64,000 nt of DNA from Curtobacterium sp. L6-1 (GTDB lineage: Bacteria > Actinomycetota > Actinomycetes > Actinomycetales > Microbacteriaceae), in assembly GCF_018885305.1 (NCBI RefSeq), contig NZ_CP076544.1, forward strand, positions 434,001-498,000. Direction: 5' to 3'. This document shows positions 30,428 through 42,993 of this stretch, piece by piece. The position numbers and the translations under genes are program-made. Under the pieces are notes generated by a model. The model saw only the letters and a program-made list of their open reading frames with translations. It searched no databases and was not told the DNA's origin. Positions within the stretch are counted from its first letter, which is position 1; every line of letters begins with the position of its first letter.

Positions 30428-31174
30428 GTGTCCAGCGGCAACCCCTTCGCTGACGCGATCTTCAGCGGACAGCTGCTCGTCGGCCTCCCCGTCGCGGCCC
30501 TGGCCGGACTGGTGTCGTTCCTGTCGCCGTGCGTGCTGCCCCTCGTGCCGGGCTACCTCGGCTACGTGAGCGGCATCGCCGACGGCAGCCGGCACTCCCG
30601 CGGGCGTGTGCTCCTCGGCGTGCTGCTGTTCGTGCTCGGCTTCACGGTGGTCTTCGTCCTCGGCTCCGCGGCCGCGGGCGCCGTCGGCTTCTGGCTCGTG
30701 CGCTGGCGGGACCTCATCGTGCAGCTCATGGGCGTCGTGGTCATCGCGATGGGCCTCGTCTTCATCGGCCGGTTCACCTTCCTGCAGCGGACCGTGAAGT
30801 CGACGTTCACGCCGCGGACCGGGCTGCTCGGGGCACCGTTGCTCGGCATCGTGTTCGCCCTCGGCTGGACCCCGTGCATCGGCCCCACACTGGCGGCCAT
30901 CAACCTCATCAGCTTCCAGTCCGGCAGCGCCTGGCAGGGCGTCGTGCTCGGCATCGCGTACTGCCTCGGCCTCGGCGTGCCCTTCCTGCTCGTCGCCCTC
31001 GGCGCGGGGTGGGCCTCGAACGCGATCGGTGTCGTCAAGCGGCACATGCGCACCGTCAACATCATCGGAGGAGCGATCCTGATCGTCATCGGTCTGCTCA
31101 TGGTCACCGGTATCTGGTCGGCCGTCATGTCGAGCGTCGGGGCGGTGATCCAGAGCTATGTCCCCGCAGTCTGA
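30428..31174 (+). CDS. ccdA: cytochrome c biogenesis protein CcdA
   Basis: A 248-aa membrane protein with about six segments. It carries the two membrane cysteines that shuttle electrons from cytoplasmic thioredoxin, in FLSPCVLPLVPGYL and LGWTPCIGPTLAA. It would reduce the TlpA-like protein encoded 3 nt upstream. GTG start. The resB ATG lies inside its 3' end. Confidence 0.93.
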   Translation: MSSGNPFADAIFSGQLLVGLPVAALAGLVSFLSPCVLPLVPGYLGYVSGIADGSRHSRGRVLLGVLLFVLGFTVVFVLGSAAAGAVGFWLVRWRDLIVQLMGVVVIAMGLVFIGRFTFLQRTVKSTFTPRTGLLGAPLLGIVFALGWTPCIGPTLAAINLISFQSGSAWQGVVLGIAYCLGLGVPFLLVALGAGWASNAIGVVKRHMRTVNIIGGAILIVIGLLMVTGIWSAVMSSVGAVIQSYVPAV

Positions 31175-32927
31175 TCCCGACGAGGTCGACCGGACCGACG
31201 ACGCCGGCACCGGCGCGGACCGGACCTCGGACCCGCAGAGGCCGTCCGACCACGTCGACGGCACCCCGGTCGCCGCGTCCGACCGTGCCGACGGCATCAC
31301 GCAGCCGAAGCTCGGTGTCGTCGGGTGCCTCCGGTTCGCCTGGCGCCAGCTCACGAGCATGCGGACCGCGCTCTTCCTGCTCATGCTCCTCGCCCTCGCG
31401 GCGATCCCGGGGTCGCTCGTGCCGCAGCGGCAGGCGGACCCGAACGGCGTCGTCCAGTACAAGAACGACCACCCGGCGCTCTTCCCGGTCCTCGACAAGC
31501 TGCAGGTCTTCGACACGTACACCTCGGTGTGGTTCTCGGCGATCTACCTCCTGCTCTTCGTCTCGCTCATCGGCTGCATCGTGCCGCGGACCCGCCACCA
31601 CTGGCAGGCCCTCCGCACCCGTCCGCCGCGGACCCCGGCACGACTCGGCCGGCTCGCCGGCTTCCGCTCCGTCGCGGTGACACCGGAGACGGTGACCGGC
31701 GGCGCGACCGCGACCGGCGGGTCGGACGCGACCGCGGGCCTCCCGTCCGTCGACCACGCGGTCACGACCGCGATGACGCAGCTGAAGAAGGCCGGGTACC
31801 GCGTCGAGCGGTTCGGCGACTCCGTCAGCGCCGAGCGCGGGTACCTGCGCGAGACCGGCAACCTGGTGTTCCACGGGGCGCTCGTCGGTGTGCTGGTCGC
31901 CGTCGGCCTGGGCGGCGGGTTCAGCTACACCGGCCAGCGCCTGCTCGTCGAGGGCCAGACGTTCACCAACGTCATCGGCGCGTACGACTCCTTCAACCCC
32001 GGCCGCTGGTCCTCGCAGGCGGACCTGCAGGGCTACAACCTGACGCTCGACGACTTCACGACGAAGTACGAGGAGCGCAACCTCGACGCCCTCGGACAGG
32101 CCACCGACTACTCGGCGACCGTCACCGCCCGGACGCGTGACGGGGCCGAGAAGACGAGCCGCCTCGGCGTCAACGAGCCGCTCGCGATCGGCGGGACGAA
32201 CGTCTACCTGCTCGGCAACGGCTACGCGATGCAGGTCACCGTGCGCGACGGCGAGGGCGACGTGGCGTTCAAGGACGTCGTGCCCTTCCTGCCCGAGGAC
32301 GCCAACTACACGTCCACGGGCGTCATCAAGGTGCCGGACGCCGTCCCCGACCAGCTCGGGATGATCGGCTTCTTCTACCCGACCGCCGTCAAGCAGGCCT
32401 CCGGAGCGAACGCCGGTGCGTTCGCGTCGTCCTACCCGGACACCGAGAACCCGGTGCTGTCGCTGCAGGTCTACACGGGCGACCTCGGCCTCGACGACGG
32501 CGTCCCGCAGAGCGTCTACCAGCTGTCCACGAAGGGCATGCAGCAGATCGCCGGCCGCCAGTCGCCTGACCCGAGCATCACCATGAAGCCCGGGCAGACG
32601 AAGCAGCTGCCGGACGGCGCGGGCTCGATCACCTTCGACGGCGTGAAGCGGTACGTCTCGCTCGACGTGCACCACGACCCCTCGCAGGGCTGGGTCGCCG
32701 CGTTCGCGATCCTGTCCGTGCTCGGCCTGCTCACGTCCCTGTTCGTCCCGCGCCGCCGCGTCTGGGTGAAGGCCGTCCGCCGCAGCGGGGCCGAGCACGG
32801 GGAGTACGACCTCGAGTACGCGGGCCTCGCGCGCGGCGAGGACCCGAACCTGGAACGTGCGGTGGCGGACATCGCCCGACGGCACATGTCGGACCTCGGA
32901 GTTAGGATCGAAGTCCGAGGCGAGTAG
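31158..32927 (+). CDS. resB: cytochrome c biogenesis protein ResB, C-terminus rewritten by the element
   Basis: The 589-aa System II haem-lyase subunit has ResB membrane segments (about 67-85, 115-135, 235-255 and near 515-535) around a large extracytoplasmic domain with RRHPALFPVLDKL-like and SYTGQRLLVEGQTF blocks. It works with CcsB to move and attach haem. The last codons (GVRI|EVRGE) cross into the integrated element. Rejoining the flanks across the element gives GVRI-AQ-stop, with the TGA overlapping the ccsB GTG by 4 nt. The present C-terminus therefore differs from the ancestral one by a few residues, probably harmlessly. Confidence 0.92.
   Translation: MSPQSDPDEVDRTDDAGTGADRTSDPQRPSDHVDGTPVAASDRADGITQPKLGVVGCLRFAWRQLTSMRTALFLLMLLALAAIPGSLVPQRQADPNGVVQYKNDHPALFPVLDKLQVFDTYTSVWFSAIYLLLFVSLIGCIVPRTRHHWQALRTRPPRTPARLGRLAGFRSVAVTPETVTGGATATGGSDATAGLPSVDHAVTTAMTQLKKAGYRVERFGDSVSAERGYLRETGNLVFHGALVGVLVAVGLGGGFSYTGQRLLVEGQTFTNVIGAYDSFNPGRWSSQADLQGYNLTLDDFTTKYEERNLDALGQATDYSATVTARTRDGAEKTSRLGVNEPLAIGGTNVYLLGNGYAMQVTVRDGEGDVAFKDVVPFLPEDANYTSTGVIKVPDAVPDQLGMIGFFYPTAVKQASGANAGAFASSYPDTENPVLSLQVYTGDLGLDDGVPQSVYQLSTKGMQQIAGRQSPDPSITMKPGQTKQLPDGAGSITFDGVKRYVSLDVHHDPSQGWVAAFAILSVLGLLTSLFVPRRRVWVKAVRRSGAEHGEYDLEYAGLARGEDPNLERAVADIARRHMSDLGVRIEVRGE
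32899..32910. repeat. attL core, GAGTTAGGATCG
   Basis: Left copy of the 12-bp direct repeat. It is simultaneously resB coding sequence (codons for GVRI) and, on the other strand, the integrase TAA stop (32902-32904). Confidence 0.88.
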
Positions 32928-34038
32928 TGTCCGCGCGGAAATCAGCTGTTTCGGGCCTGCTGGTCCGCGAGGAGTCCGCAGCAACGCGGGAAGACCGCAT
33001 CAGGTCCGCAGCAGCGGTCCGGGTGCGGTCTTCTGCTGTTCCCCAGAGGTGGCTGTACGTGTTGAGCGTCGTCGTCGCCTTCGCGTGCCCGAGGGCACGT
33101 TGCACCGTGACCACGTCGGCTCCGTGCGCGATCAGGCCTGAGGCGAAGTAGTGACGCAGATCGTGGGGTGTGAATCCGCTGACACCGGCGCGCTCGAGCG
33201 TTCGCGTGAAGTGCCACCGCAGGGAGTCCGGGTTCGGCGGTCGCCCCGGCAGGAGCCAGCAGTCGTCGCCGTGGACGCCGATGTCCGCGACGTGCTTCGA
33301 CAGCAGGGCCACGAGGTCGTCAGGCAGGTATACCGGGCGCTCACTGCCGTGCTTCGGAGGGATGACGGACAAGGTGCCCGGCTCCTTCTGCACTTGCCGG
33401 GTGACGTGCAGCGTGCGCTTGAGGAACTCGACGTCGCTCACCTGCACGCCGGCGACCTCGCCGATACGGAGGCCGGCGAAGGCTGCGAGCGCGACGAAGG
33501 GCCTGAACCAGTCCTCGGCGGCATCCATGATCGCCCCGACCTGCTCAGGCGACGGGATCACCATTGCGACCTCGGCGCGACGTGTGCGGGGGAGACGGAC
33601 ACCCATCGAGGGGTCGACGGTCAGGATTCGGTCCGCCATCGCTGCACGGATCACCGTGCGGACGTTGCCCATGCGGGTCTTGATTGTCCCCGGCGCGAGG
33701 CGCGCCTGCATGTACTTCACCCACGACTCCACGTGGCTGCGCCGGAGCTTGCCCGTCTCGATCGCAGCGAACGTGCAGTCGTTCATGGTGATGTCGTACG
33801 AGTCACGCGTCGACGACGCCCAGATCTGCCTGGGAGCCCAGTCGTCGTAGAACGCGCGCAGAGTCGTGCGTGCAGTCCTCGGGTCCACATAGTTACCGGT
33901 GATGATGGCGCTCGCCGTGGTGTCGAGCCAGTCCTGCGCGTCCCGCTTCCGGTCGAAGTGCTTCGCGTGCTCCCTTCCGGCGTCGTCGCGGTACCGCGCC
34001 CGCCACTTGCCGTTCGGCCGCTGCTTGATGCTGGACAT
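32902..34038 (-). CDS. site-specific tyrosine recombinase (integrase)
   Basis: A 378-aa phage-type integrase: an N-terminal arm-binding domain (about 1-60), a SAM-like core-binding domain (about 65-150), and a catalytic domain with Arg in AFAGLRIGEVAG, Lys in PPKHGSERPVYL, HxxR in HDLRHYFASG, His in LGHAKA and Tyr in NTYSHL. All active-site residues are present, so it is probably functional. The TAA stop lies inside the attL core and the gene overlaps resB by 26 nt. I chose the ATG at 34038; the frame continues 7 codons further into the repressor gene. Confidence 0.93.
   Translation of the reverse strand: MSSIKQRPNGKWRARYRDDAGREHAKHFDRKRDAQDWLDTTASAIITGNYVDPRTARTTLRAFYDDWAPRQIWASSTRDSYDITMNDCTFAAIETGKLRRSHVESWVKYMQARLAPGTIKTRMGNVRTVIRAAMADRILTVDPSMGVRLPRTRRAEVAMVIPSPEQVGAIMDAAEDWFRPFVALAAFAGLRIGEVAGVQVSDVEFLKRTLHVTRQVQKEPGTLSVIPPKHGSERPVYLPDDLVALLSKHVADIGVHGDDCWLLPGRPPNPDSLRWHFTRTLERAGVSGFTPHDLRHYFASGLIAHGADVVTVQRALGHAKATTTLNTYSHLWGTAEDRTRTAAADLMRSSRVAADSSRTSRPETADFRADTTRLGLRS
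32973..33011. promoter_or_regulatory. candidate integrase arm sites, left end
   Basis: AGTCCGCAG (32973-32981) and GGTCCGCAG (33003-33011) lie 60-110 bp inside the left end, within the integrase gene. The same two 9-mers occur about 100-120 bp inside the right end. This is how arm-type integrase sites are usually laid out. Confidence 0.45.
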
Positions 34039-34040
34039 GG

Positions 34041-34583
34041 CTACTCGTCCACCGTCCACTTGATCTCTTCGAGGCCGTCGAGCATCGCCTGCGCGTAGGG
34101 GCCGCGGTGCTCCTGTGCCCTCAGTTTGAGCAGCACGTCGGTCTGTTCGTCGCGGATCAGTTCGACGGGCACGACGCCGAGTTCATAGCGGATGCGCTTC
34201 CCGAGTTCGCCGGCGTCGAGAGCTGTCGAATCCCTACGAACCAGCGCGTCTGCCTCAGTGGCCAGCCGCCGCTGCAATCGCAGCACCTCCGCGGCCTGCG
34301 CCTCCATCTGGGCCTGCGCAGCGGCGAGCTGCTTCATGACCTCGAATACCCGCTCCTGTACGTCTGTGACAGTGAAGGTGTGGATGCTCAGCACCTCAAG
34401 GATCTCGGCGAGCGAGTTCGCCTCGCTGAGGCGCAAGGGACGCTCTCCGCGCTCGACGTTCCACACGGTCGCCTGTGACCACCTGTGACCGCGTTCGCGC
34501 ATAGCAACGGCGAGCTCCTTCTGCGACCTCGAACCTCGCGCTCGAGCTACGTTCCGACCGATCTGGGCGTCATCAATCTCCAC
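34041..34583 (-). CDS. HTH (XRE-type) repressor of the element
   Basis: A 180-aa protein: an N-terminal XRE helix-turn-helix (IGRNVARARGSRSQKELAVA, RWSQATVWNVERGERPL), then a Glu/Ala-rich coiled coil (about 85-120) and a C-terminal region. I chose the GTG at 34583 because TTGACT and TATGGT on the minus strand put the transcript start about 8 nt away. The frame extends to 34661 but would run through that promoter. It probably represses the divergent AlpA-like operon and is transcribed with the integrase (stop 2 nt before its ATG). Confidence 0.82.
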   Translation of the reverse strand: MEIDDAQIGRNVARARGSRSQKELAVAMRERGHRWSQATVWNVERGERPLRLSEANSLAEILEVLSIHTFTVTDVQERVFEVMKQLAAAQAQMEAQAAEVLRLQRRLATEADALVRRDSTALDAGELGKRIRYELGVVPVELIRDEQTDVLLKLRAQEHRGPYAQAMLDGLEEIKWTVDE

Positions 34584-34606
34584 GGGACTTGACCATACTC
34601 CAAAGG

Positions 34607-34648
34607 TAGTCGGAGTCAACTCTCGTGTGTCGTAGTTGACCACGACTA
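34607..34648. promoter_or_regulatory. divergent control region with paired operators
   Basis: TAGTCGGAGTCAACT (34607-34621) and AGTTGACCACGACTA (34634-34648) form an inverted pair with two mismatches. Each contains a TTGAC -35 box: one facing the repressor, the other facing the AlpA-like gene. This is the layout of a phage-like repressor switch. Confidence 0.65.
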
Positions 34649-34702
34649 CGATCGCGTGCATGCTGTCGATACGAAGTCGTCCGTGACAACGAAAGGACCA
34701 CT

Positions 34703-34885
34703 ATGCAGAAGCTGCTGACCATCGTCGAGGCGGCACCGCTCGTGCGGAAGACCGAGGCTGCCATGCGGTGGTGGCTCGCGCAGAAGGACTGCCCGGTGAA
34801 GGCCGCGAAGATCGGCGGCCGAGTGTTCGTCCGAGAGACCGACATCGAGACGTACATCGAGGCGCAGTTCGCGGAGGCATCTTGA
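34703..34885 (+). CDS. AlpA/excisionase-like HTH protein
   Basis: A 60-aa DNA-binding protein: LLTIVEAAPLVRKTEAAMRW helix-turn-helix, then KIGGRVFVRETDIETYIEA, the Xis/AlpA wing. As first gene of the rightward operon it may direct excision or activate it. A ribosome-binding site (AAAGGA) precedes the ATG. Its stop overlaps the next ATG by one base. Confidence 0.8.
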   Translation: MQKLLTIVEAAPLVRKTEAAMRWWLAQKDCPVKAAKIGGRVFVRETDIETYIEAQFAEAS

Positions 34886-35334
34886 TGACCCGCACCGCAA
34901 CGAGAAACGCCCCCGAAGCCGGCCAGGGCTTCGAGGGCAACGACCAGAACACCTACAAGGGAGAACCGATCGCCATGAAGACTACTGCGCCCAGAGTCGC
35001 ACACGCCCCCGACAATGAGGAACTCGCCAGTTCAAGGGACAGCGCGCTCGTCCCTTGCGTCGACGAGTCGTGCGCCTACTTCCACCAGGGCCACTATGCG
35101 GACGCCTCGGAACCGCTGTTCGTCCACCGCTTCGTCTCCGTCCGCGAGGAGGGGTTCCGCGTCTCGGTCGAGCGCTTCTCCACGGACGACAACTGGGACC
35201 TCTCGATCAACGTCCTGGACGAGGACCTGACCCCACAGCGCGCACGGCTGCTTGCTCGAGCGCTCGTCCGATGCTCCGATATCACCGAGTCGCTCAACGC
35301 CGAACGTCACCACAACGCCGAGGTCGCCTGCTAG
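34885..35334 (+). CDS. hypothetical element protein, 149 aa
   Basis: No family recognised. The ATG at 34885 overlaps the preceding stop (TGATG) and follows GGAGG. The body (about 45-140) has CVDESCAYFHQGHY, which might bind metal (two Cys, two His), and an acidic FSTDDNWDLSINVLDEDL stretch. The stop abuts the next GTG. Part of the early rightward operon. Confidence 0.6.
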   Translation: MTRTATRNAPEAGQGFEGNDQNTYKGEPIAMKTTAPRVAHAPDNEELASSRDSALVPCVDESCAYFHQGHYADASEPLFVHRFVSVREEGFRVSVERFSTDDNWDLSINVLDEDLTPQRARLLARALVRCSDITESLNAERHHNAEVAC

Positions 35335-35633
35335 TGGACGAGTCCACGTACGAGCGGTGCCGGCAGCGCGGGTGCATCCGGTTCGGCCTCTGGCACACAA
35401 GTCGGGAGACGACGCACCGCTTCCGCACTGTTCACACGGCGCTCGCCGCGGTGTCAGTCGAGAAGCGCACCGAGGACGACCCCTGGGCGGTCTGGCTGGT
35501 TCGGGGCGACGACGAACCGGTGCAGCTGACTGCACCGCCCGACCCGACCCCTGACGTCGGTCATGAGGACCACATGGAGCTCCGTAGCGCCGTTCTGTAC
35601 GCCCTGCGCACCGCGGAGAGGTTCAACGGGTAG
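35334..35633 (+). CDS. hypothetical element protein, 99 aa
   Basis: No family recognised. The GTG overlaps the previous stop by one base. Contains ERCRQRGCIRFGLWH and ends with an amphipathic LYALRTAERF helix. The tight packing with its neighbours and the continuous frame support a real gene. Confidence 0.55.
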   Translation: MDESTYERCRQRGCIRFGLWHTSRETTHRFRTVHTALAAVSVEKRTEDDPWAVWLVRGDDEPVQLTAPPDPTPDVGHEDHMELRSAVLYALRTAERFNG

Positions 35634-35637
35634 GCGA

Positions 35638-35943
35638 GTGAGCTTCAAGGCGATCGAGTGGGCAGTGAAGCAGGAGACGTCACCGACGCAGAAGGCCGTA
35701 CTCATGATGATCGCGTTCCACTTCAACGACGCCGAGCACTGCTCCTGGCCCTCGCACAGCCTGGTGGCGACGGAGACCAACCTCGGCCGATCAACTGTGA
35801 TTCGAACTGTCGCCTCGTTGCAGGGCGATCTCGGTCTCATTGAGATCGAAGCGCGCGAGGACCCATCCGGCAGGAAGACCAGCAACCGCTACTACCTGCC
35901 TGACTACGACCCTCTGTCGCGCCCCACCTCGACGGCTGCCTGA
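35638..35943 (+). CDS. HTH replication-type protein, probably truncated
   Basis: A 101-aa protein with a Helix_turn_helix_36-like domain typical of phage and plasmid replication proteins: SFKAIEWAVKQETSPTQKAV, HCSWPSHSLVATETNLGRST, SNRYYLPDY. Members usually continue with a basic, repetitive tail. Here the frame stops at 35943, but the next bases in another frame (from 35962) read VPERVVP-like repeats and NRKKNRKTNRN, as such tails do. A frameshift or nonsense change is likely. The DNA behind it forms an iteron-like array. Confidence 0.7.
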   Translation: MSFKAIEWAVKQETSPTQKAVLMMIAFHFNDAEHCSWPSHSLVATETNLGRSTVIRTVASLQGDLGLIEIEAREDPSGRKTSNRYYLPDYDPLSRPTSTAA

Positions 35944-35944
35944 T

Positions 35945-36049
35945 GGTCCCGGAGCGAGTAGTACCCGGTCCCGGAGCGGGCAGTGATGGTCCCGGAGCGA
36001 GTAGTACCCCGTCCCGGAGCGGGCAGTACGACGGTCCCGCTCCGGGACC
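35945..36049. repeat. iteron-like array plus inverted copy
   Basis: GGTCCCGGAGCG occurs at 35945, 35967 and 35988 and, with one change, at 36010: spacing 22, 21 and 22 bp, about two helical turns. An inverted pair GGTCCCG-CTC-CGGGACC (36033-36049) follows. Either replication-initiator binding sites or the decayed repetitive tail of the HTH gene, or both. Confidence 0.7.
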
Positions 36050-36181
36050 TGAATAGAAAGAAGAACCGCAAGACGAACCGCAACTTAACCGCAAGTGAAG
36101 GCGAGGCGGTCAGTTCGAGCTCATCGGCCTCGCGCTGATCGCGTCCCTCAGCACCACCAACCCGACCAGGAAGGAAGCCAC

Positions 36182-36361
36182 ATGCCCAGTGAGATGAGCC
36201 ACGAACAGTGGGTTGCTCGCACCCGCCGCATCGAACGCATCAACCAGAAGCAACGCGATCTCCTCATGGACCTCCGCGCAGACCTCATGGCGCAGGTCCG
36301 TCGACTCGACCGGATCCTCAGCCACTCCACGAGTAAGACACCCGACCGGAAGGACACCTGA
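36182..36361 (+). CDS. hypothetical element protein, 59 aa
   Basis: A small, basic and highly helical protein (HEQWVARTRRIERINQKQRD). The ATG has a good AGGAAGGAAG ribosome-binding site 5 nt upstream. Lies directly before the scaffold-like gene (2-nt gap). No family recognised. 36050-36181 before it has no intact gene. Confidence 0.55.
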   Translation: MPSEMSHEQWVARTRRIERINQKQRDLLMDLRADLMAQVRRLDRILSHSTSKTPDRKDT

Positions 36362-36363
36362 CC

Positions 36364-36810
36364 ATGACCACCGACGACACCACGCCCAGCGTCGACCAGC
36401 AGGGCGCAGCATCACCGGCACCCGCACCGGTACCGGCCAACGAGACGCCGAAGAGCGGCAACGCGGAAGCCGCGAAGTACCGCAACCAGCTCCGCGACGT
36501 CACGACGGAACGCGACGCGCTCGCCGCATCCCTCACCGCCGCTAGAAAGACGATGGTCGAGGGCATCGCCGGGAAGAGCCTCGAAAAGCCCGAGTCGCTC
36601 TGGGCCTCCGACACCAAGCTCGAGGACCTCCTCGACGAGGACGGCAATGTCGACAGCGAGAAGGTCACCGCGGCCGCCACGAAGGCGGCCGACGAGCTCG
36701 GGCTGAGGAAGGCACCGACCGGCCCGATCGTTCGTCGTGCCGGCAATGAACCATCCGTCGGAGCAGGACTCACCGGCGGGGGCTTCGCCGGCGCGTTCGC
36801 TCCGCGGTAG
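36364..36810 (+). CDS. phage scaffold-like protein
   Basis: The 148-aa protein has a disordered Pro/Ala N-terminus, a central coiled coil (NAEAAKYRNQLRDVTTERDA, about 32-60), an acidic middle and a Gly-rich end. This architecture, immediately before a major capsid gene, is that of small phage scaffolding proteins that organise capsid assembly. Assigned by composition and position, not by clear homology. Confidence 0.6.
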   Translation: MTTDDTTPSVDQQGAASPAPAPVPANETPKSGNAEAAKYRNQLRDVTTERDALAASLTAARKTMVEGIAGKSLEKPESLWASDTKLEDLLDEDGNVDSEKVTAAATKAADELGLRKAPTGPIVRRAGNEPSVGAGLTGGGFAGAFAPR

Positions 36811-36863
36811 AGTGAGTTCGGTTTCGGGTAGACCCAGGCGGTCGCTCCGGAGCCAACGAGCTT

Positions 36864-36958
36864 GATCCCCAGGTGGGATCTTCGGATGAGGCCAGGTGCC
36901 CGCCGAACAGTCAACTGTTCGCGCGGCCCTGGCCTCATCTCGTTGAGGCGGGCCGCCT
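36864..36958 (+). other. structured leader before the capsid gene
   Basis: Three hairpins in a row. (1) GATCCC-CAGGT-GGGATC, 36864-36880. (2) Outer GATGAGGCCAGG / CCTGGCCTCATC enclosing CGAACAGT-CA-ACTGTTCG, 36885-36939. (3) AGGCG-GGC-CGCCT, 36946-36958. The capsid ATG follows at 36979. It may be a terminator/readthrough or translation-control element between scaffold and capsid, as relative dosage matters for assembly. Confidence 0.6.
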
Positions 36959-36978
36959 GAGTCGAAAGACCAACGATC

Positions 36979-37827
36979 ATGTCCCCGAACCCCATCACGA
37001 CCACCGACTCCGCCAAGGCGTGGTCCCCCGACCTGCAGACTTTCGCCGCCCAGGACGTCATCCCCGAGGCCCTCGTTCTGCAGACCTCTACCGTCGCCGG
37101 CAGCATCGAGGGCGACGAGCCCGCGGTCCGCGTCGCCTACGTCGACGACGCCGACGCCCAGTTCACCGCCGAGGGGGCCGACATCCCCGAAGCCGAGCCC
37201 ACTCTTTCCGAGGTGCTCGTCCACACAGGCAAGGTCACCCTGCTCGTTCGCGTCTCCCGCGAGCAGTACGTGCAGAACGGTACCGCCGACATCCTGTCGG
37301 ACAGTGCACGCCGGGCCGTCCTCAAGAAGGCCAATGAGGCCTACCTGTCCCAGGTGATCCCCACCCCGCCGGCAGTCACGCCCCCGGGGGGTGTGCTCAC
37401 CCACCCAGGTATCCAGGACGGCGGCCAGATCGCCACCAACCTCGACGCCCTCGCCGACGCGTTCACCCTCGTCGAAATCGCCGGCGGCAACGTCACGCAC
37501 CTGCTCGCAGCGCCCGACACGTGGGGTGCGCTCCGGAAGCTCAAGAAGGGCAGCAGCAGCAACGAGAGCCTGCTCGGCGCTGGTACCGACGACGCCGAGA
37601 AGCGCATCCTCAACACGCCCGTGTTCACCTCCAACGCTGTCCCGTCGGGCACCCTCGCGCTGCTCGACAAGTCCGCGATCGTCTCCGCAGCAGGCGCAGT
37701 GCAGGTCGCAACGTCTGAGCACGCGTACTTCGGAAGCGACAGCATCGCGCTCCGCGTCACGTTCCGGTTCGGGCAGAACCTCGTCCGCCCGAAGCGCATC
37801 GCGAAGCTGAGCCTCAAGCTCTCCTGA
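36979..37827 (+). CDS. phage major capsid protein, HK97 type
   Basis: A 282-aa protein with the order and composition of actinophage HK97-fold capsid proteins: VIPEALVLQTSTVAGSIEGD, AQFTAEGADIPEAEPTLSEV, LLVRVSREQYVQNG in the first half and VPSGTLALLDKSAIV, SIALRVTFRFGQNLVRPKRI in the second. No protease or delta domain is fused. Being the only clear morphogenesis gene besides the scaffold, it would let the element make its own (perhaps smaller) capsids while using a helper phage for portal, packaging and tails. Confidence 0.85.
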   Translation: MSPNPITTTDSAKAWSPDLQTFAAQDVIPEALVLQTSTVAGSIEGDEPAVRVAYVDDADAQFTAEGADIPEAEPTLSEVLVHTGKVTLLVRVSREQYVQNGTADILSDSARRAVLKKANEAYLSQVIPTPPAVTPPGGVLTHPGIQDGGQIATNLDALADAFTLVEIAGGNVTHLLAAPDTWGALRKLKKGSSSNESLLGAGTDDAEKRILNTPVFTSNAVPSGTLALLDKSAIVSAAGAVQVATSEHAYFGSDSIALRVTFRFGQNLVRPKRIAKLSLKLS

Positions 37828-37853
37828 GCTCCGCGCCAGCCGGCGAAGAGCCG

Positions 37854-37876
37854 CTCGCTACCCAGGAAGTAGCGAG
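37854..37876 (+). terminator. hairpin after the capsid gene
   Basis: CTCGCTAC-CCAGGAA-GTAGCGAG, a perfect 8-bp stem with a 7-nt loop, 26 nt after the capsid stop. Confidence 0.55.
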
Positions 37877-37884
37877 GCATGCTC

Positions 37885-38073
37885 GCGCCGGCCGGCGCGG
37901 CCTATCGGGCGATAGGGGGGTACCCCCTCCCGCCCCCGGTTTGGCCCTCCCAAGGTCATAGGGCCAATCTCTCCCCGCGATTTTTTCCAACCAAGCCCAG
38001 CGGGACGCCTGCGGTCCGCTGCCGACCGAACAGCTGCCGTTACGACCCTCACGTCGTCCCGCGAGGCTCAACC
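37885..38073. other. non-coding palindrome cluster, candidate packaging (cos-like) site
   Basis: No gene in about 250 bp. It holds GCGCCGGCCGGCGC (37885-37898), CTATCG-GG-CGATAG (37902-37915), GGGGGTACCCCC (37916-37927), a TTGGCCCT/AGGGCCAA inverted pair (37941-37967), then GCGA followed by six T. This G/C-run-then-T-run pattern with nested dyads resembles the neighbourhood of cohesive ends in actinophages. Inference only. Confidence 0.4.
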
Positions 38074-38177
38074 CCACTCATCACCGCTGACGGGAAAAAC
38101 CGTCACACACCCGACAGGAGCACCTGTGATCATCACCACTGGTAGCGGACAGGAGATCACGATCGACCGACCGCATG
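38074..38177. repeat. about 105-bp direct repeat, copy 1
   Basis: Starts CCACTCATCACCGCTGACGG and runs through the ribosome-binding site and first about 18 codons of the 214-aa gene. Copy 2 is at 38795-38899, differing by scattered substitutions and one indel. Confidence 0.85.
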
Positions 38178-38770
38178 GTCGCGAGATCAATCCCGACGTC
38201 TGGGCCATGCCCGACGGCGAGCTGAGGCGGGTGCAGAGGCTGGCGCTTGGCTGGCGCATGGACGTCGTCTACTACGACGACAGCGGCATTCGAGCAATCG
38301 GCCAGTACCGGCCAGAACACATCGACGGGTCGCCGTTCCCCACAGGGTGGAACTCCTGCACCCCGAGGGCCGAGTGCTACACGGGACCGTCAGGTCACAT
38401 GCGGGTCACGCGCTACGTCGCAGAACCGCACCCGAGTCCTCTCCCGCAATGCGGGTGCGGGCTCCGTCTGATGGAGCACATCGGCCAGGTGTCGGAACTG
38501 GTTCGGGAACGTGGTGACCAGTTCCTCAGCGAGTGGTCGCTGCCGAGCGAGCCCGTCCAGCACGCGTTGTGCATCTCGTCGGTCGTCGGACTCGGCCTCA
38601 CCTGCAACGGTGAAGAACTCGACCCCGAGGGCACCATCCGCACGCAGTGGCTCGCCTTGGACGACCATCTGCTGTTCGGTCAGCAGGATGCCCACGTTGC
38701 CGAGATGTTCCGGCAAACCTCCATGGACGTGCACGTCGTACCTGACCTGGGAGCGCTCCGCGACGTGTGA
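38126..38770 (+). CDS. hypothetical cargo protein, 214 aa
   Basis: No family recognised. The GTG start follows AGGAG at a 6-nt spacing. The first half contains WRMDVVYYDDSGIRAIGQYR, the middle a CGCGLRLMEHIGQV segment and scattered Cys, and the end an acidic helical stretch. It is flanked by two copies of a repeat of about 105 bp covering its own ribosome-binding site and start, a sign of a local duplication. Cargo position suggests an accessory (possibly defence or interference) role, but nothing in the sequence proves it. Confidence 0.6.
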   Translation: MIITTGSGQEITIDRPHGREINPDVWAMPDGELRRVQRLALGWRMDVVYYDDSGIRAIGQYRPEHIDGSPFPTGWNSCTPRAECYTGPSGHMRVTRYVAEPHPSPLPQCGCGLRLMEHIGQVSELVRERGDQFLSEWSLPSEPVQHALCISSVVGLGLTCNGEELDPEGTIRTQWLALDDHLLFGQQDAHVAEMFRQTSMDVHVVPDLGALRDV

Positions 38771-38794
38771 AGAGCGGCACAACACGGGCACATG

Positions 38795-38899
38795 CCACTC
38801 ATCACCGCTGACGGAGAGCACCGTCACACAGCTCGACAGAAGCACCTGTGATCATCATCACTGGTAGCGGACAGGGGATCACGACCGACCGACCGCAGG
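38795..38899. repeat. about 105-bp direct repeat, copy 2
   Basis: Second copy of the segment at 38074-38177, after the 214-aa gene. It keeps the ribosome-binding region (with AGAAG instead of AGGAG) and the start codon. Confidence 0.85.
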
Positions 38900-38979
38900 G
38901 CCAACTCATCAGGAGAGCGGCCGGTCGCTCCCCTCTGAGACTTTGCCTCGCTCCGCTACAGTCATCGGGTGCCTACTGA
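38848..38979 (+). pseudogene. truncated 5' copy of the 214-aa cargo gene
   Basis: Within repeat copy 2 the GTG start and about 17 codons match the 214-aa gene (MIIITGSGQGITTDRPQG), then the frame diverges and stops after 43 codons. It reads as the remnant of a second, deleted gene copy. Its tail overlaps the start of the next gene. Confidence 0.5.
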
Positions 38980-39385
38980 GCAGGATGGATCGGAGATCGT
39001 GATTCGGTTCTCCCCCTTCCTCGCTGACCGCCTCCGGGAGAACGCAGAGGACACCTTCGAGGAGGAGCGCGAGCGGGGCGACGCGTCGCCCCGCTATGGT
39101 GTCTCAGTCATCGCGGCCACCCCCGAAGACGGGGAGGACGTTTTGGACACTGTCCGTAGGATCGTCGGGAGCACCACGCTCCGAGGTAAGAAGATCGCCG
39201 TCCTGACGGGGAATGAACTACGTGCGGCTGGGTTCGAGGTGGTGGCGGATCCGAACGCGAAGGAACCGCTGCACCACCTCGTCGGAGACGACCCGTTTTC
39301 AGACCCGCCAAGGGTAGACGAACTAGCATCGCTGCTGGAGGATCGTCGCTTGACGAATCCTGCTTGGAAGGAAGGCTCGAGATGA
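38969..39385 (+). CDS. hypothetical cargo protein, 138 aa
   Basis: No family recognised. TACAGT (38957-38962) lies 6 nt before the GTG, so it is probably a leaderless message with its own promoter. Acidic N-terminal half (TFEEERERGDASPRYGVSV), then a VLDTVRRIVGSTTLRGKKIA block. Overlaps the next gene by 4 nt (ATGA), so it heads a small cargo operon. Confidence 0.6.
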   Translation: MPTEQDGSEIVIRFSPFLADRLRENAEDTFEEERERGDASPRYGVSVIAATPEDGEDVLDTVRRIVGSTTLRGKKIAVLTGNELRAAGFEVVADPNAKEPLHHLVGDDPFSDPPRVDELASLLEDRRLTNPAWKEGSR

Positions 39386-39732
39386 ACCAGGTACGAGTCG
39401 AAGTCGACCTGAACTCCGTGCGCACGGACGGAACCACCCGAGTGCGCCTCGCACGGGCGAGCGGTGAGCTTCACCAGGGGCAGATGGTTACGGCTTACGA
39501 GAGCGAAGACGGCATCGCCGGCGAGGCCTACGTCCTCCGAGTCGACGCGACCACGGGATACGCCTTCCTGACGATCAATCGTGCATCTCTCCGCGACGAC
39601 GATGGGTCGGTCGGTACCATCAACTTCTCGCAGAACGCCAATCGAGCCGTCGCGCGCGTGGCGAATCAGCACGCAACCAGCGCGTCGACCGGTGCCACTG
39701 TTCGTCGGTCGGCCCTGCGCCGCACCTACTAA
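39382..39732 (+). CDS. hypothetical cargo protein, 116 aa
   Basis: No family recognised. Mostly beta-strand pattern in the first 85 residues (QVRVEVDLNSVRTDGTTRVR, MVTAYESEDGIAGEAYVLRV), suggesting a small barrel, then a basic tail ending RRSALRRTY. AAGGAAGG precedes the ATG. Coupled to the 138-aa gene and followed 9 nt later by the DUF6941-like gene. Confidence 0.6.
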   Translation: MNQVRVEVDLNSVRTDGTTRVRLARASGELHQGQMVTAYESEDGIAGEAYVLRVDATTGYAFLTINRASLRDDDGSVGTINFSQNANRAVARVANQHATSASTGATVRRSALRRTY

Positions 39733-39741
39733 CCTGTAAGC

Positions 39742-40179
39742 GTGATCCATCTAGGAGCTGCCCTCCTCTGCGACGCCGCAACCGTCCGAGAGAACCTTCT
39801 CCATGTTCTCGGTGGCGGCGTCACCCGCTTGCCGCGACCGGGATTCCCGGCACCCTTAGGGGCAGATATCGCTCTGCTTCTCTATGTGGACGGCGATTCG
39901 GGCGTAGAGGTGGCGCACAAGGTGACAGGCGTTTGTCGCCTACAGGGCTCGGACGACGAGCCCGTCTTTGGCTTCGAGTACACCCTACGGACTGTGCTTG
40001 GCACCGAAGACGGTGCGCAGTCCGTTTCGGCCATCCTCCCGGCAGCCAACCTCGGTATCCCGAGCGCTGGGGCGTACCAGGTCGAGATTTCGGTGGATGA
40101 CAAGTCAATCGGTCGGATCCCGTTCACCGCCACGCTGGACGAGAACATGTTCGCTGACCTGGGGGACCTTTCGGGCTGA
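39742..40179 (+). CDS. DUF6941-like protein, 145 aa
   Basis: The start HLGAALLCDAATVRENLLHV followed by LGGGVTRLPRPGFPAPLGAD resembles the small DUF6941 family, whose function is unknown. The protein is beta-rich and ends in an acidic helix. GTG start, 9 nt after the previous gene. Third gene of the cargo operon; a strong hairpin follows at 40265-40317. Confidence 0.6.
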   Translation: MIHLGAALLCDAATVRENLLHVLGGGVTRLPRPGFPAPLGADIALLLYVDGDSGVEVAHKVTGVCRLQGSDDEPVFGFEYTLRTVLGTEDGAQSVSAILPAANLGIPSAGAYQVEISVDDKSIGRIPFTATLDENMFADLGDLSG

Positions 40180-40264
40180 TCCACCGATTGGTTGGGCACC
40201 ACTTGGCACTCGTGCAGTGACCTTCTCCTGATCCACGCAGAGTGCCGGCCCGGGTACAAGGCAA

Positions 40265-40317
40265 CGGCAAGACCCCCCCCCACAGGCTTCATTCCGAAGA
40301 ACGTGGGGGTCTTGCCG
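40265..40317. terminator. bidirectional hairpin with C-run
   Basis: CGGCAAGACCCCC pairs with GGGGGTCTTGCCG across a loop of about 27 nt. It separates the convergent DUF6941-like (+) and 113-aa (-) genes. Confidence 0.7.
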
Positions 40318-40325
40318 CTGCGCTG

Positions 40326-40667
40326 TCAGTCCTCGCGGACGACCTGGAAGTCTTGAGGACGCAAGCCGGCGTCAATGAGACCGTTGGCTGCCCCGTTCGA
40401 CCGCAGCCGGTAATGACCCGCTATGCCGCATGCCTTCGCAAACTCGTGAACGTCGAAATTCGGGTCTACGGATGCGAGCTGCTGAGCAACGACCCACATG
40501 ACGTTGAGTACGACGGTCTCGGTCTGCTCCTGCGAAAGCTGTTCGATCGACTTCTTCTTGCGATCCACGTCGCGCTGGTGGCCAGCGCGGTCAGCCCGGA
40601 AGGGCGCGTCGGACCAGTCGTGTCCAGCAATTTCGGCAGCGAAGTTCTGAGCTATCTGACTGAGCAT
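40326..40667 (-). CDS. hypothetical cargo protein, 113 aa
   Basis: No family recognised. ATG preceded by GAGGAGGACAAC. Contains RDVDRKKKSIEQLSQEQTET and a hydrophobic LNVMWVVAQQLASVDPNFDV segment, with a C-terminal helical region. The only cargo gene in the right half on the minus strand apart from the HTH remnant. Confidence 0.55.
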   Translation of the reverse strand: MLSQIAQNFAAEIAGHDWSDAPFRADRAGHQRDVDRKKKSIEQLSQEQTETVVLNVMWVVAQQLASVDPNFDVHEFAKACGIAGHYRLRSNGAANGLIDAGLRPQDFQVVRED

Positions 40668-40795
40668 GTTGTCCTCCTCAGGACGCTCTACGGGCCCTGC
40701 CGACCAGGTCCCATGGCGTGATGATACTGGAAGACACCGACGATCTCGGCGCGTGCATCCTTCCTCGCGTCTCCAGCCGGCGCTAGCCTGCGAGC

Positions 40796-40972
40796 ATGAC
40801 TTACCTACAAGCGGCTGACCACGCAGACAAAGCAGCAGACCTTGCCGACAAGGCCGGGATGATGCGGAACAACGACGAACCGGATCGTGCTTTCGAGTGT
40901 CTGTCGTTCGCTGTCCTGGAGCTGAGCAAGGCAGTCGCGGAGCTGTCGCGCGCTGCGCACCGCGCGAGCTGA
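40796..40972 (+). CDS. small leaderless cargo protein, 58 aa
   Basis: The -10 box TAGCCT (40784-40789) ends exactly 6 nt before the ATG, the leaderless layout used by many genes here. The 58-aa product is helical and Ala-rich (MTYLQAADHADKAADLADKA, then FECLSFAVLELSKAVAEL), like a short helical pair. It is followed after 3 nt by the 146-aa gene, making a two-gene unit. Confidence 0.6.
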   Translation: MTYLQAADHADKAADLADKAGMMRNNDEPDRAFECLSFAVLELSKAVAELSRAAHRAS

Positions 40973-40975
40973 CCG

Positions 40976-41416
40976 ATGACCTACGCACTCGAGCATGAGA
41001 ACACCCTCGAGGGCCAGGCCGACGGCCCGTACCGCACTGGCACGTACGCAACTGTCAACGAGGCGAAGCGCGCCGGCGAGCGTCTCGCAGTGAAGGGCGG
41101 GGTAGCGAACGTCCTGATCCGCGACCGAGGTGACGTCATCAGCATCCTGGAGGGGAACCTCGTGTCCGAGTTCATCAATGGGATCTGGCATGACGGCGGC
41201 ATCGTCGACGTCAAGAGCTGGTGGTCGAAGCTCGACGACAGCACTCGAGCATGGCTGCTCGAGCACACGGACGATCAGCTGCCTGACGAAGTTCTCCACG
41301 CCGTCATCGCTGCCGGCGGCACCGTACCCGGGACGAAATGGGAACACCAGAACCAGTACGACTTCCGCCTACCCGAGACCACGGTCGCCTGGATCAAGCA
41401 GCATCGGCAGCCGTAG
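40976..41416 (+). CDS. hypothetical cargo protein, 146 aa
   Basis: No family recognised. Starts MTYALEHENTLEGQADGPYR; contains GVANVLIRDRGDVISILEGN and the Trp-rich VKSWWSKLDDSTRAWLLEH. Transcribed with the 58-aa gene upstream. A small-plus-larger gene pair in cargo can be a toxin/antitoxin or anti-phage pair, but no motif shows it. Confidence 0.55.
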   Translation: MTYALEHENTLEGQADGPYRTGTYATVNEAKRAGERLAVKGGVANVLIRDRGDVISILEGNLVSEFINGIWHDGGIVDVKSWWSKLDDSTRAWLLEHTDDQLPDEVLHAVIAAGGTVPGTKWEHQNQYDFRLPETTVAWIKQHRQP

Positions 41417-41543
41417 CGCCGGGTTGCCGGGTGCGCTTCGGTTCTTCTCCGGCGAAGCCCCTGCGGCGCTTACCGCACCGCAAAACAGCCACCCGCCCCG
41501 CCCGTGAGTCGCATGACACTGCCGTTCCCGACAAGCGGGCGAG

Positions 41544-41744
41544 TCACGGTCTTCCGGCGGCGATCCACGCGACGTATCGGTCTGCCTCTTGATGCTCAAT
41601 CACGAACTTCGACCTGCCGTTACGGTGGCCCTCGAGCCTCCCCGCCTGGATGTCGTTTCGGACGTACTGTCTCGACATGCCGATCGCGTCTGCAAGGTCG
41701 GTGACGTCCCAGAGCATCCTCGTGGGTGCGCTTGATGCGATCAA
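41544..41744 (-). CDS. HTH protein, C-terminal part of a frameshifted gene
   Basis: The 66-codon frame encodes an excisionase-type helix-turn-helix: LWDVTDLADAIGMSRQYVRN, then GRLEGHRNGRSKFVIEHQEA. The first start candidate is a TTG at 41744. An ATG (at MLWDV) 9 codons later is also possible. It overlaps the frame at 41620-41844 and together they look like one protein of about 100 aa broken by a -1 shift near 41745. Confidence 0.5.
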   Translation of the reverse strand: MIASSAPTRMLWDVTDLADAIGMSRQYVRNDIQAGRLEGHRNGRSKFVIEHQEADRYVAWIAAGRP

Positions 41745-41844
41745 GGCGCTGGCCAGCAGGGGTGGCCTCCAGCTCCCGCCTCAACGCGCGCTCAAGTTCC
41801 TCGCGGATGACGCGCCGGATGATGCTCTCGATGTCCTCGGCCAT
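41620..41844 (-). CDS. N-terminal part of the frameshifted HTH gene
   Basis: Begins MAEDIESIIRRVIREELERA, a helical segment often fused before an HTH in actinobacterial element proteins. After about residue 38 the frame becomes Arg-rich nonsense (GRHRPCRRDRHVETVRPKRH), while the -1 frame continues as the HTH. Probably a pseudogene or a frameshift product. Confidence 0.45.
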   Translation of the reverse strand: MAEDIESIIRRVIREELERALRRELEATPAGQRLDRIKRTHEDALGRHRPCRRDRHVETVRPKRHPGGEARGPP

Positions 41845-41862
41845 GTCCCAAACCGTAGGTCA

Positions 41863-41882
41863 GGTCCGCAGCGAGTCCGCAG
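41863..41882. promoter_or_regulatory. candidate integrase arm sites, right end
   Basis: GGTCCGCAG (41863-41871) and AGTCCGCAG (41874-41882) are the same 9-mers as at the left end, in the same orientation. 41883-41984 between them and attR holds no gene that I can see. Confidence 0.45.
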
Positions 41883-41984
41883 AAGCCTCATCAGGGGGCC
41901 GCGTCCGACGTGCCGTCACACCATGTCGATGCGCGCAGGATCAATGATCGCATCACCCGCCAGCACCTGGCACTCACGATGAAA

Positions 41985-41996
41985 GAGTTAGGATCG
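41985..41996. repeat. attR core, GAGTTAGGATCG
   Basis: Right copy of the direct repeat, 4 nt before the ccsB GTG. It contains TAGGAT exactly 6 nt before the GTG, the -10 position for a leaderless start (identical hexamer and spacing to menG), and AGGA as a Shine-Dalgarno-like sequence. Confidence 0.88.
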
Positions 41997-42000
41997 CCCA

Positions 42001-42993
42001 GTGAACACGACGACTCTTGCGACCTACTCGGTCGTGCTGACGTACTCCGCGATGGCGGTCTACGTCATCGCGTTCATCTCCTTCGCGCTGGACCTGGCGA
42101 AGCGGGCCGGTGACGTCGGGTCCGCCGCGGCCGGCGCCGGTTCGTCCCGGAACGACGCGTCGGCGACCACGGTCGCCACGGTCCAGGGCGGCACGGTCGT
42201 CCTCGAACGCGTCGAGCAGCGGAAGGACGACGGCGGTCGGCGCGGCTCGCGGTTCGAGCGCGTCGGCATGGCGATGACGGTCCTCGCGCTCGTCGTCCAC
42301 ATCGGCGCGATCGTCCTCCGTGGCGTCGCGGCCGACCGGGTGCCGTGGGGCAACATGTTCGAGTTCTCGCTCACCGGGACCGGGCTGATCATCGCGGTGT
42401 TCCTGCTCGTGCAGTTCTGGCAGGACCTCAAGTTCCTCGGTGTGTTCATCACCGGGCTGACGATCATCCTGCTCGGCATCGCGACCGTGAACTACTACGT
42501 GCCGGTCGTCCCGCTGCAGCCCGCGCTCCAGTCGTACTGGCTCGTCATCCACGTGTTCGTCGCCATCGCCGGCACGGGGTTCTTCGCGCTCGGCGCCGGG
42601 CTCGCGGTGTCGCAGCTCGTGCAGACGTACCGCGCCGGCCGCCCAGTCTCGCGCCGCCTCCGCTTCATGGAGACGCTGCCCGACGCCGACCGGCTCGAGG
42701 TCCTCAGCTACCGCGTGATCCTGGTCGGCTTCGTGCTGTGGACCTTCACGCTCATCGCCGGTGCCGTCTGGGCCGAACGCGCCTGGGGCCGCTACTGGGG
42801 GTGGGACACCAAGGAGGTCTGGACCTTCATCATTTGGGTCCTCTACGCCGGGTACATCCACGCACGCGCGACCCGCGGGTGGCGCGGCGCACGGTCATCG
42901 TGGCTGGCCCTCATCGGTTTCGCGGCCGTCATGTTCAACTTCTCGGTCGTGAACGTCTTCTTCAAGGGGCTGCACAGCTACTCCGGGCTCTGA
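42001..42993 (+). CDS. ccsB: cytochrome c biogenesis protein CcsB (haem export/attachment)
   Basis: The 330-aa System II partner of ResB has about eight membrane segments, the tryptophan-rich haem-handling motif WGRYWGWDTKEVW (about 262-274), and His residues near VIHVFVAIAGTGFF and IWVLYAGYIHARA. Its GTG originally overlapped the resB stop by 4 nt; the inserted element now separates them by 9.1 kb. The att core keeps a -10/RBS-like sequence in place, so ccsB may be expressed independently. Confidence 0.93.
   Translation: MNTTTLATYSVVLTYSAMAVYVIAFISFALDLAKRAGDVGSAAAGAGSSRNDASATTVATVQGGTVVLERVEQRKDDGGRRGSRFERVGMAMTVLALVVHIGAIVLRGVAADRVPWGNMFEFSLTGTGLIIAVFLLVQFWQDLKFLGVFITGLTIILLGIATVNYYVPVVPLQPALQSYWLVIHVFVAIAGTGFFALGAGLAVSQLVQTYRAGRPVSRRLRFMETLPDADRLEVLSYRVILVGFVLWTFTLIAGAVWAERAWGRYWGWDTKEVWTFIIWVLYAGYIHARATRGWRGARSSWLALIGFAAVMFNFSVVNVFFKGLHSYSGL

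Follow-up and report, generated by a model that had tools for sequence, protein, structure and literature searches.

Introduction

By the definition in the passages of PMC10654092 that concern them, candidate phage-inducible chromosomal islands (PICIs) of mycobacteria are phage-like regions in which integration machinery occurs together with a capsid gene, and small actinobacterial elements had earlier been suspected as satellites (PMC10023795, in the part bearing on them). Here we describe an element lying between resB and ccsB in a 64-kb stretch of Curtobacterium sp. L6-1 (contig NZ_CP076544.1, positions 434,001 to 498,000; this stretch is the window, and coordinates are in its numbering unless prefixed). 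The element combines an integrase with a major capsid gene within one bounded unit, and its sequence makes it probable that it is a helper-dependent, PICI-like phage satellite that used its own tyrosine integrase to insert into a 12-bp core within the last codons of resB.

Several described systems resemble it in part. The Mycobacterium candidate PICIs, which include phiRv1 and phiRv2, are likewise small, carry an integrase and a major capsid gene, in some cases with a scaffold gene, and use tRNA genes or other attachment sites (attB); in contrast to the window element, some carry terminase genes and 22% carry PEST toxin systems, and a resB/ccsB site is not described in the relevant passages of PMC10654092. 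Capsid-forming PICIs (cf-PICIs) are satellites with their own capsid gene and integrase, but as portrayed in the corresponding sections of PMC10690885 they encode a whole head and packaging set, whereas only capsid and scaffold-like genes were recognised here. By description, a precedent for the window capsid protein is Ccm of SaPIbov5, an HK97-fold satellite protein that re-sizes helper heads; according to the part of PMC8569155 that treats it, however, Ccm occupies the pentamers of a helper-made shell and is the sole SaPIbov5 protein found in capsids, and the window element differs further from SaPIbov5 in having a scaffold-like gene beside its capsid gene. The Mulch and Flayer satellites of Streptomyces are also actinobacterial with capsid and scaffold genes, but in the account that PMC10690885 gives of them they encode terminase, portal and adaptor, are without primases and, in the case of MiniFlayer, are without an integrase.

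Results

An element bounded by a 12-bp repeat separates resB from ccsB

A preliminary description of this DNA had proposed that a 12-bp repeat flanks a 9.1-kb element cutting a cytochrome c operon exactly at the resB/ccsB junction. Exactly two copies of GAGTTAGGATCG are present in the window (32899..32910 and 41985..41996, plus strand), with a chance expectation from shuffles of 0.01 copies per window and two copies reached in 0 of 100 shuffles, and the repeat and the size both held up, the element being 9,086 bp in length when counted with one core copy. Flanking the repeats on the outside are resB (31158..32927, plus strand; PF05140, 5e-135) and the cytochrome c assembly gene ccsB (42001..42993, plus strand; PF01578, 1e-44). 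The insertion does lie between the two genes and separates ccsB from its operon, but the crossover core is not at the gene boundary itself: the left copy (attL), which includes the integrase stop codon (TAA on the minus strand), sits inside the final resB codons, and the right copy (attR) stops 4 nt upstream of the ccsB start and includes AGGA, the probable ccsB ribosome-binding site 7 nt before GTG. Nor does the cut close either reading frame. The element side of attL provides a replacement ResB tail, EVRGE for AQ (..DLGVRI-EVRGE* for ..DLGVRI-AQ*), so resB stays open, and ccsB keeps an intact start codon together with its probable Shine-Dalgarno (SD) sequence. Joining the outer sequences across the element gives GGA GTT AGG ATC GCC CAG TGA, in which the ccsB GTG overlaps the TGA as GTGA, and the predicted join was found in the genus genomes G065, G070 and G073, with wider stretches fetched for G065 and G070.

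Occupancy of the site was then read across the genus, as the preliminary description had suggested. Sixty-six genomes were examined, and the 61 with a resB-side core at no more than 2 mismatches form the classified set. The junction is empty in 58 of these 61 (47 by the strict pattern, 8 as GTGAG or GTGGA variants, and 3, G076, G080 and G010, by fetched stretches), so that empty overlaps are the common state among close genomes. It is occupied in three: the window genome (G000, 9,086 bp), G046 (14,897 bp) and G078 (16,831 bp between its two cores). All three spaced genomes have an integrase there, and no element-like spacing without an integrase was seen. The G046 and G078 elements differ from the window element, and their integrases are 76% identical to the window integrase. 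The empty sites in relatives, together with two other elements at this position, show that the resB-ccsB pair hosts a site-specific mobile element, with an integrase adjoining the attachment site, cores at both ends and empty attB sites in relatives, as for elements mobilised by site-specific tyrosine integrases.

The G078 element (L046 with L132, G078:C154:17263-34094) is a 16.8-kb resB-site prophage with terminase, portal and capsid genes. Its capsid protein is of another type (547 aa, phrog_2263), and the best among the matches listed come from Microbacterium, Gordonia and Arthrobacter phages of 15-17 kb, as capsids or as fusions of capsid and protease (31-37%); a 588-aa protein of its tail region had no PHROGs match at 1e-5.

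The capsid gene marks a family of small elements in other actinobacteria

The window element encodes an HK97-type major capsid protein of 282 aa (36979..37827, plus strand; PF05065 5e-17, phrog_10 4e-19), to which proteins of four relatives are 50-56% identical, and upstream of it a head scaffolding-like protein of 148 aa (36364..36810, plus strand; phrog_233 0.005, a weak match); in five relatives the gene immediately before the capsid gene encodes a protein 34-41% identical to it. Capsid relatives at E 1e-20 were present in 6 of 398 family genomes, the window's own included, and at 22 loci on genome contigs of Mycobacterium, Leucobacter, Bifidobacterium, Xylanimicrobium, Microbacterium and others, 8 of the 22 being from Mycobacterium, Mycolicibacterium or Mycolicibacter. 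Six of these loci were left out: in L137, L140, L148 and L156, two of which are short contigs, no integrase was called; L155 has its capsid gene split in two frames; and L146 has no clear repeat. L065, L066 and L067 duplicate L141, L143 and L147 and were counted once, and L064 and L068 complete a set of 18 non-duplicate relatives in other actinobacteria, each bounded at both ends by a direct repeat. Together with the window element (n=19) they span 7,044-10,060 bp, with a median of 8,767. Every one of the 18 carries an integrase and, ahead of its capsid gene, a scaffold gene. The profiles for these three genes drew on the window and on some of L064-L068 (for the integrase also on L045 and L046), such that up to 5 of the 18 match partly by construction; the five contributing relatives were shown separately by tblastn.

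The attachment repeat overlaps the 3' end of a tRNA gene in 16 of the 18 bounded relatives, including L152, whose repeat is only 15 bp yet ends at its tRNA gene. The remaining two are L141, with its repeat at a protein gene start as judged by eye, and L138, with a tRNA-like repeat but no tRNA called. Measured against this family, the resB site is as unusual an attB as had been claimed. Two further observations were made in these loci: L141, whose repeat is at a protein gene, carries a tRNA-Arg gene inside (L141:11118-11193), and L149 has a second scaffold-capsid pair (L149:1306-2740) at a distance of about 8 kb, which may mean that two capsid satellites lie there in tandem.

A search of 50,697 phage records at E 1e-5 gave no match for the window capsid protein, and two pattern scans of IMG/VR gave no confirmed match; the capsid protein of the Leucobacter relative L065 had one weak phage match (26%, E 1e-3). 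A profile search of the PDB returned one weak capsid match (9osb, E 4e-4), with 2fs3 at 0.08.

Large terminase and portal genes are not recognised in the element or its relatives

Pfam and PHROGs scans recognised no large terminase, portal, tail or lysis gene in the window element, which thus lacks the recognisable set of a complete prophage; of the cf-PICI set (capsid, protease, portal, connectors, terminase), capsid and scaffold-like genes were the only ones recognised. A genome-wide search of 25 genomes was made with the portal family phrog_12 and the large-terminase families phrog_2 and phrog_9 only, and the hit positions were compared with the elements by ourselves. No match to these three families fell inside the window element, the 18 relatives or five tape-measure elements (below), the genome-wide search being limited to these large terminases; contig numbers of the named records were assigned from lengths and open reading frames, and one possible overlap, in L136, was excluded by reading frames. 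The prophages of G078 and G072 were recovered as positive controls. Given that phrog_2 matched 11 of 14 control genomes, it is unspecific, and it missed the terminase of the G078 element, which phrog_9 found. In the window genome there was no portal or phrog_9 match, and two weak phrog_2 matches lay far from the element. No helper prophage is evident in this genome by that search, and the helper would therefore probably come from outside.

Small-terminase-like matches were seen in a PHROGs tally that took 90 of the 160 listed element proteins and in which 25 of 181 families are listed: five members matched phrog_57, the best at 8e-6. Twenty large element proteins scanned singly were assigned to replication or to nothing, and none to terminase or portal.

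Five genus elements with related integrases encode a tape measure protein of 917-1279 aa (L045:9447-12293, L047:8809-12276, L050:7582-10335, L054:9866-12781 and L057:5167-9006), L045 having scaffold-like and small-terminase-like genes in addition. None of the papers listed in our literature searches treats a tape-measure satellite; satellites with their own tape measure could represent a new hijacking route. Tape-measure-like proteins also occur in three capsid satellites, as a strong match in L064 (6977-9007), a moderate one in L150 (11169-14060) and a weak one in L142 (7127-8251), and for those of L064 and L150 an endolysin-named family scores best.

The integrase and its attachment sites

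The tyrosine integrase (32902..34038, minus strand; 378 aa from the called start; PF00589 9e-23, phrog_1 9e-62) has GLRIGE and HDLRH motifs and is convergent with resB, overlapping its 3' end by 26 nt. Three GTCCGC repeats in the left arm (32962, 32973 and 33003, within 32962..33011 on the plus strand) are probable arm-type integrase sites, and the right arm holds GTCCGCAG twice in the same orientation (41863..41882, plus strand; GTCCGC at 41863 and 41874); 4 of the 7 window copies of GTCCGCAG, both strands counted, lie in the arms. L045 matches the window in the mutual spacing of its three left-arm repeats and in the 11-nt distance within its right pair, and L046 retains two of the three left-arm repeats. 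In all three resB-site elements, AAGTCCGAG follows the core and mirrors TCGGACCTC before it, an arrangement that we take to be the one expected of core-type sites in lambda-type systems.

A tree of 16 integrases groups them by target, with the resB-site integrases at 96/91, a ychF trio at 85/85 and a permease pair at 100/100. Among the targets listed, which were named by eye, the genes flanked at their 3' ends by genus relatives of the integrase include ychF, a permease gene and a gene next to aldehyde dehydrogenase, and repeats at these other-site elements were found for L047, L050, L055 and L057 only. An attB at the 3' end of a protein gene thus looks ordinary for this integrase clade, and in this respect the resB site is less unusual than had been claimed. 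None of 5 family-level loci outside the genus has a resB-site integrase adjoining resB or ccsB. We found no paper linking attB or a prophage integrase to cytochrome c biogenesis, within a coverage that leaves out most subscription journals.

The core is a coding sequence conserved at the DNA level

Core conservation was read in 19 loci (17 distinct tails among them) that were collected by their similarity in ccsB, so that the core played no part in their selection. In all 19 the ResB end reads ..TCG GAC CTC GGA/C GTT AGG AT.., in which the rare codons GTT and AGG are invariant, although GTT makes up 3 of 1,584 Val codons (0.2%) and AGG 7 of 1,061 Arg codons (0.7%) in the 43 called window genes; codons just upstream vary, at third positions and others. 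TAGGAT-N6-GTG is retained in 19/19 of these loci and in 63/63 pattern-fetched loci, some genomes counted twice, and 37 distinct pattern-fetched junctions are also invariant, partly by construction given that the fetch pattern held GTTAGGAT. The core is thus coding (ResB V-R-I/M), conserved at the DNA level, and places AGGA 7 nt before the ccsB start. As the simplest reading of these sequences, we infer that this AGGA is the ccsB ribosome-binding site inside coding sequence. Conservation at the DNA level would make the core a reliable integrase target, as with tRNA genes, and we infer that a target of this kind, usable without gene breakage, is why this integrase lineage uses the resB site, just as others use tRNA 3' ends.

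Remaining genes of the element

Near the integrase are an XRE-type repressor-like protein (34041..34661, minus strand; start uncertain; HTH_31 at 1e-4, below the curated cut-off) and an excisionase/AlpA-like HTH_17 protein (34703..34885, plus strand; PF12728 5e-7, phrog_66 0.002; 74% identical in L045). Two small proteins of 149 and 99 aa with no assigned function (34885..35633, plus strand) precede a possible replication module, which consists of a replication initiation O-like protein of 101 aa (35638..35943, plus strand; phrog_391 1e-12, HTH_36 3e-6) and iteron-like GTCCCGGAGCG repeats with a palindrome read in the sequence (35941..36049; two 43-bp copies 98% identical), a possible replication origin; no primase was recognised in this module. 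Another small protein of 59 aa without assigned function (36182..36361, plus strand) lies before the scaffold-like gene.

Downstream of the capsid gene, the cargo region holds a 214-aa protein lacking Pfam, PHROGs or PADLOC matches (38126..38770, plus strand), followed by two proteins without a match (38999..39732, plus strand; 128 and 116 aa), a DUF6941 protein (39742..40179, plus strand; PF22091 8e-12), a 113-aa protein without a match (40326..40667, minus strand), two proteins of 58 and 146 aa without assigned function (40796..41416, plus strand; the first with a sub-threshold Pfam match only), and a second excisionase-like helix-turn-helix protein (41544..41717, minus strand; phrog_1840 0.0025, phrog_66 0.014, and more weakly the terminase small subunit family phrog_57, 0.028). 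PADLOC gave no match for ten element proteins. At 38074-38178 and 38795-38900, two stretches (36 and 67 bp, 89-93% identical) occur twice at an offset of 721-722 bp, which would fit duplication of a cargo gene and loss of its second copy.

Discussion

A helper-dependent satellite is the probable identity of the window element, and one that makes or re-sizes a small head would fit the narrow size range of the family, its capsid and scaffold genes, and its lack of recognised packaging or tail genes. Once a helper phage infects the cell, the integrase together with the excisionase-like protein would excise the element, and the O-like protein acting with the iteron-like repeats would start its replication. 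Scaffold and capsid protein would then build a small head, or re-size one, for a genome of about 9 kb, with helper terminase, portal, tail and lysis proteins supplying the remaining functions. Several points weigh against this account. Mobility and helper dependence are predictions; the scaffold call is weak on its own (phrog_233, E 0.005); and no clear packaging gene was seen in the element, in which excisionase families score above phrog_57 (0.028) and a cos or pac site was not sought. In addition, the short replication protein (101 aa) and the duplicated 67-bp cargo stretch make some decay possible, and 5 of the 66 genomes (G004, G009, G053, G071 and G072) have no core match at up to 2 mismatches and could hold a different junction.

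Such signs of decay raise the alternative that a full phage at this site lost its packaging and tail genes and keeps its integration, repressor and capsid genes by chance. The same attB and a related integrase serve the 16.8-kb prophage of G078, in which terminase, portal and capsid genes are present, and the short O-like protein and the duplicated cargo segment would also be expected of a decayed prophage. However, 19 elements from Microbacteriaceae, Mycobacterium-type genera, Bifidobacterium and others keep integrase, scaffold and capsid within 7.0-10.1 kb, the G078 capsid is of the other, phrog_2263 type, and the window capsid is without a match in the phage records searched; we consider decay unlikely as the origin of the element. 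The major capsid and scaffold-like proteins could instead suggest a strict cf-PICI that makes its own complete head, but with no portal or large-terminase match and no protease or connector recognised, where cf-PICIs encode all of these by the description in PMC10690885, this reading is contradicted by the genes present, unless some that went unrecognised fill these roles, and was rejected as highly improbable. The bounds of the element could also be questioned, given that the repeat is only 12 bp and was not picked by a blind longest-repeat search, in which it is outranked by chance 14-15-mers (the top four in the window being two 15-mers, one 14-mer and one 13-mer, the last identical to the arm repeat). 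Proof of insertion rests on the empty sites in relatives and not on repeat length: relatives with an empty site show the join as predicted, and in two further genomes the core is occupied by other elements, by which a chance repeat or assembly artefact is refuted, its probability being close to nil.

A further possibility concerns ccsB expression. CACCTGGCAC (41965..41974, plus strand) stands at the same distance from the core in 3/3 resB-site elements and could be an arm or excision site, or could supply the -35-like box to a hybrid promoter that takes its -10, TAGGAT, from the core, since CTGGCA lies 16 nt before TAGGAT in all three. Integration would then rewire the operon, with a box outside the core and TAGGAT forming a promoter for a leaderless ccsB RNA starting at or near GTG. 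The CTGGCA-N16-TAGGAT match is weak (8/12), a promoter scan at 9/12 called none at the right end of the element, and a -35-like hexamer at one of three spacings is expected at 6% of window positions. Of the other-site elements, L047 and L057 have GGGCACCC or GGCACTC near attR, and L050 and L055 are without the block; this favours reading the block shared by the resB-site elements as a site for the integrase or the excisionase. Because these related blocks stand near attR at other genes, we lowered the hybrid promoter from unlikely to quite unlikely, and the broader proposal, that integration and excision act as a switch of ccsB between co-transcription with resB and an attR-formed promoter and so control cytochrome c maturation, from quite unlikely to very unlikely. 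Retention of TAGGAT-N6-GTG in all loci of both samples and the constant CTGGCA position speak for such a switch; against it, beyond the points just given, the core is already explained as coding sequence plus SD. Were the promoter reading true, three kinds of phage elements would share the operon junction as a docking site, each sparing cytochrome c maturation while taking control of ccsB.

Under the preferred satellite reading, the comparison exposes a lineage of 7-10-kb actinobacterial satellites with scaffold and capsid genes and no recognised large terminase or portal, the window member of which has a capsid absent from the phage records searched. The sharing of one attB among a capsid satellite, a prophage and an element with a tape measure gene, whose integrases are closely related, would offer a natural setting for helper-satellite competition. 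The resB core, in turn, suggests a concrete rule for attB choice outside tRNA genes, in which the target is a stretch conserved at the DNA level by serving two genes at once.

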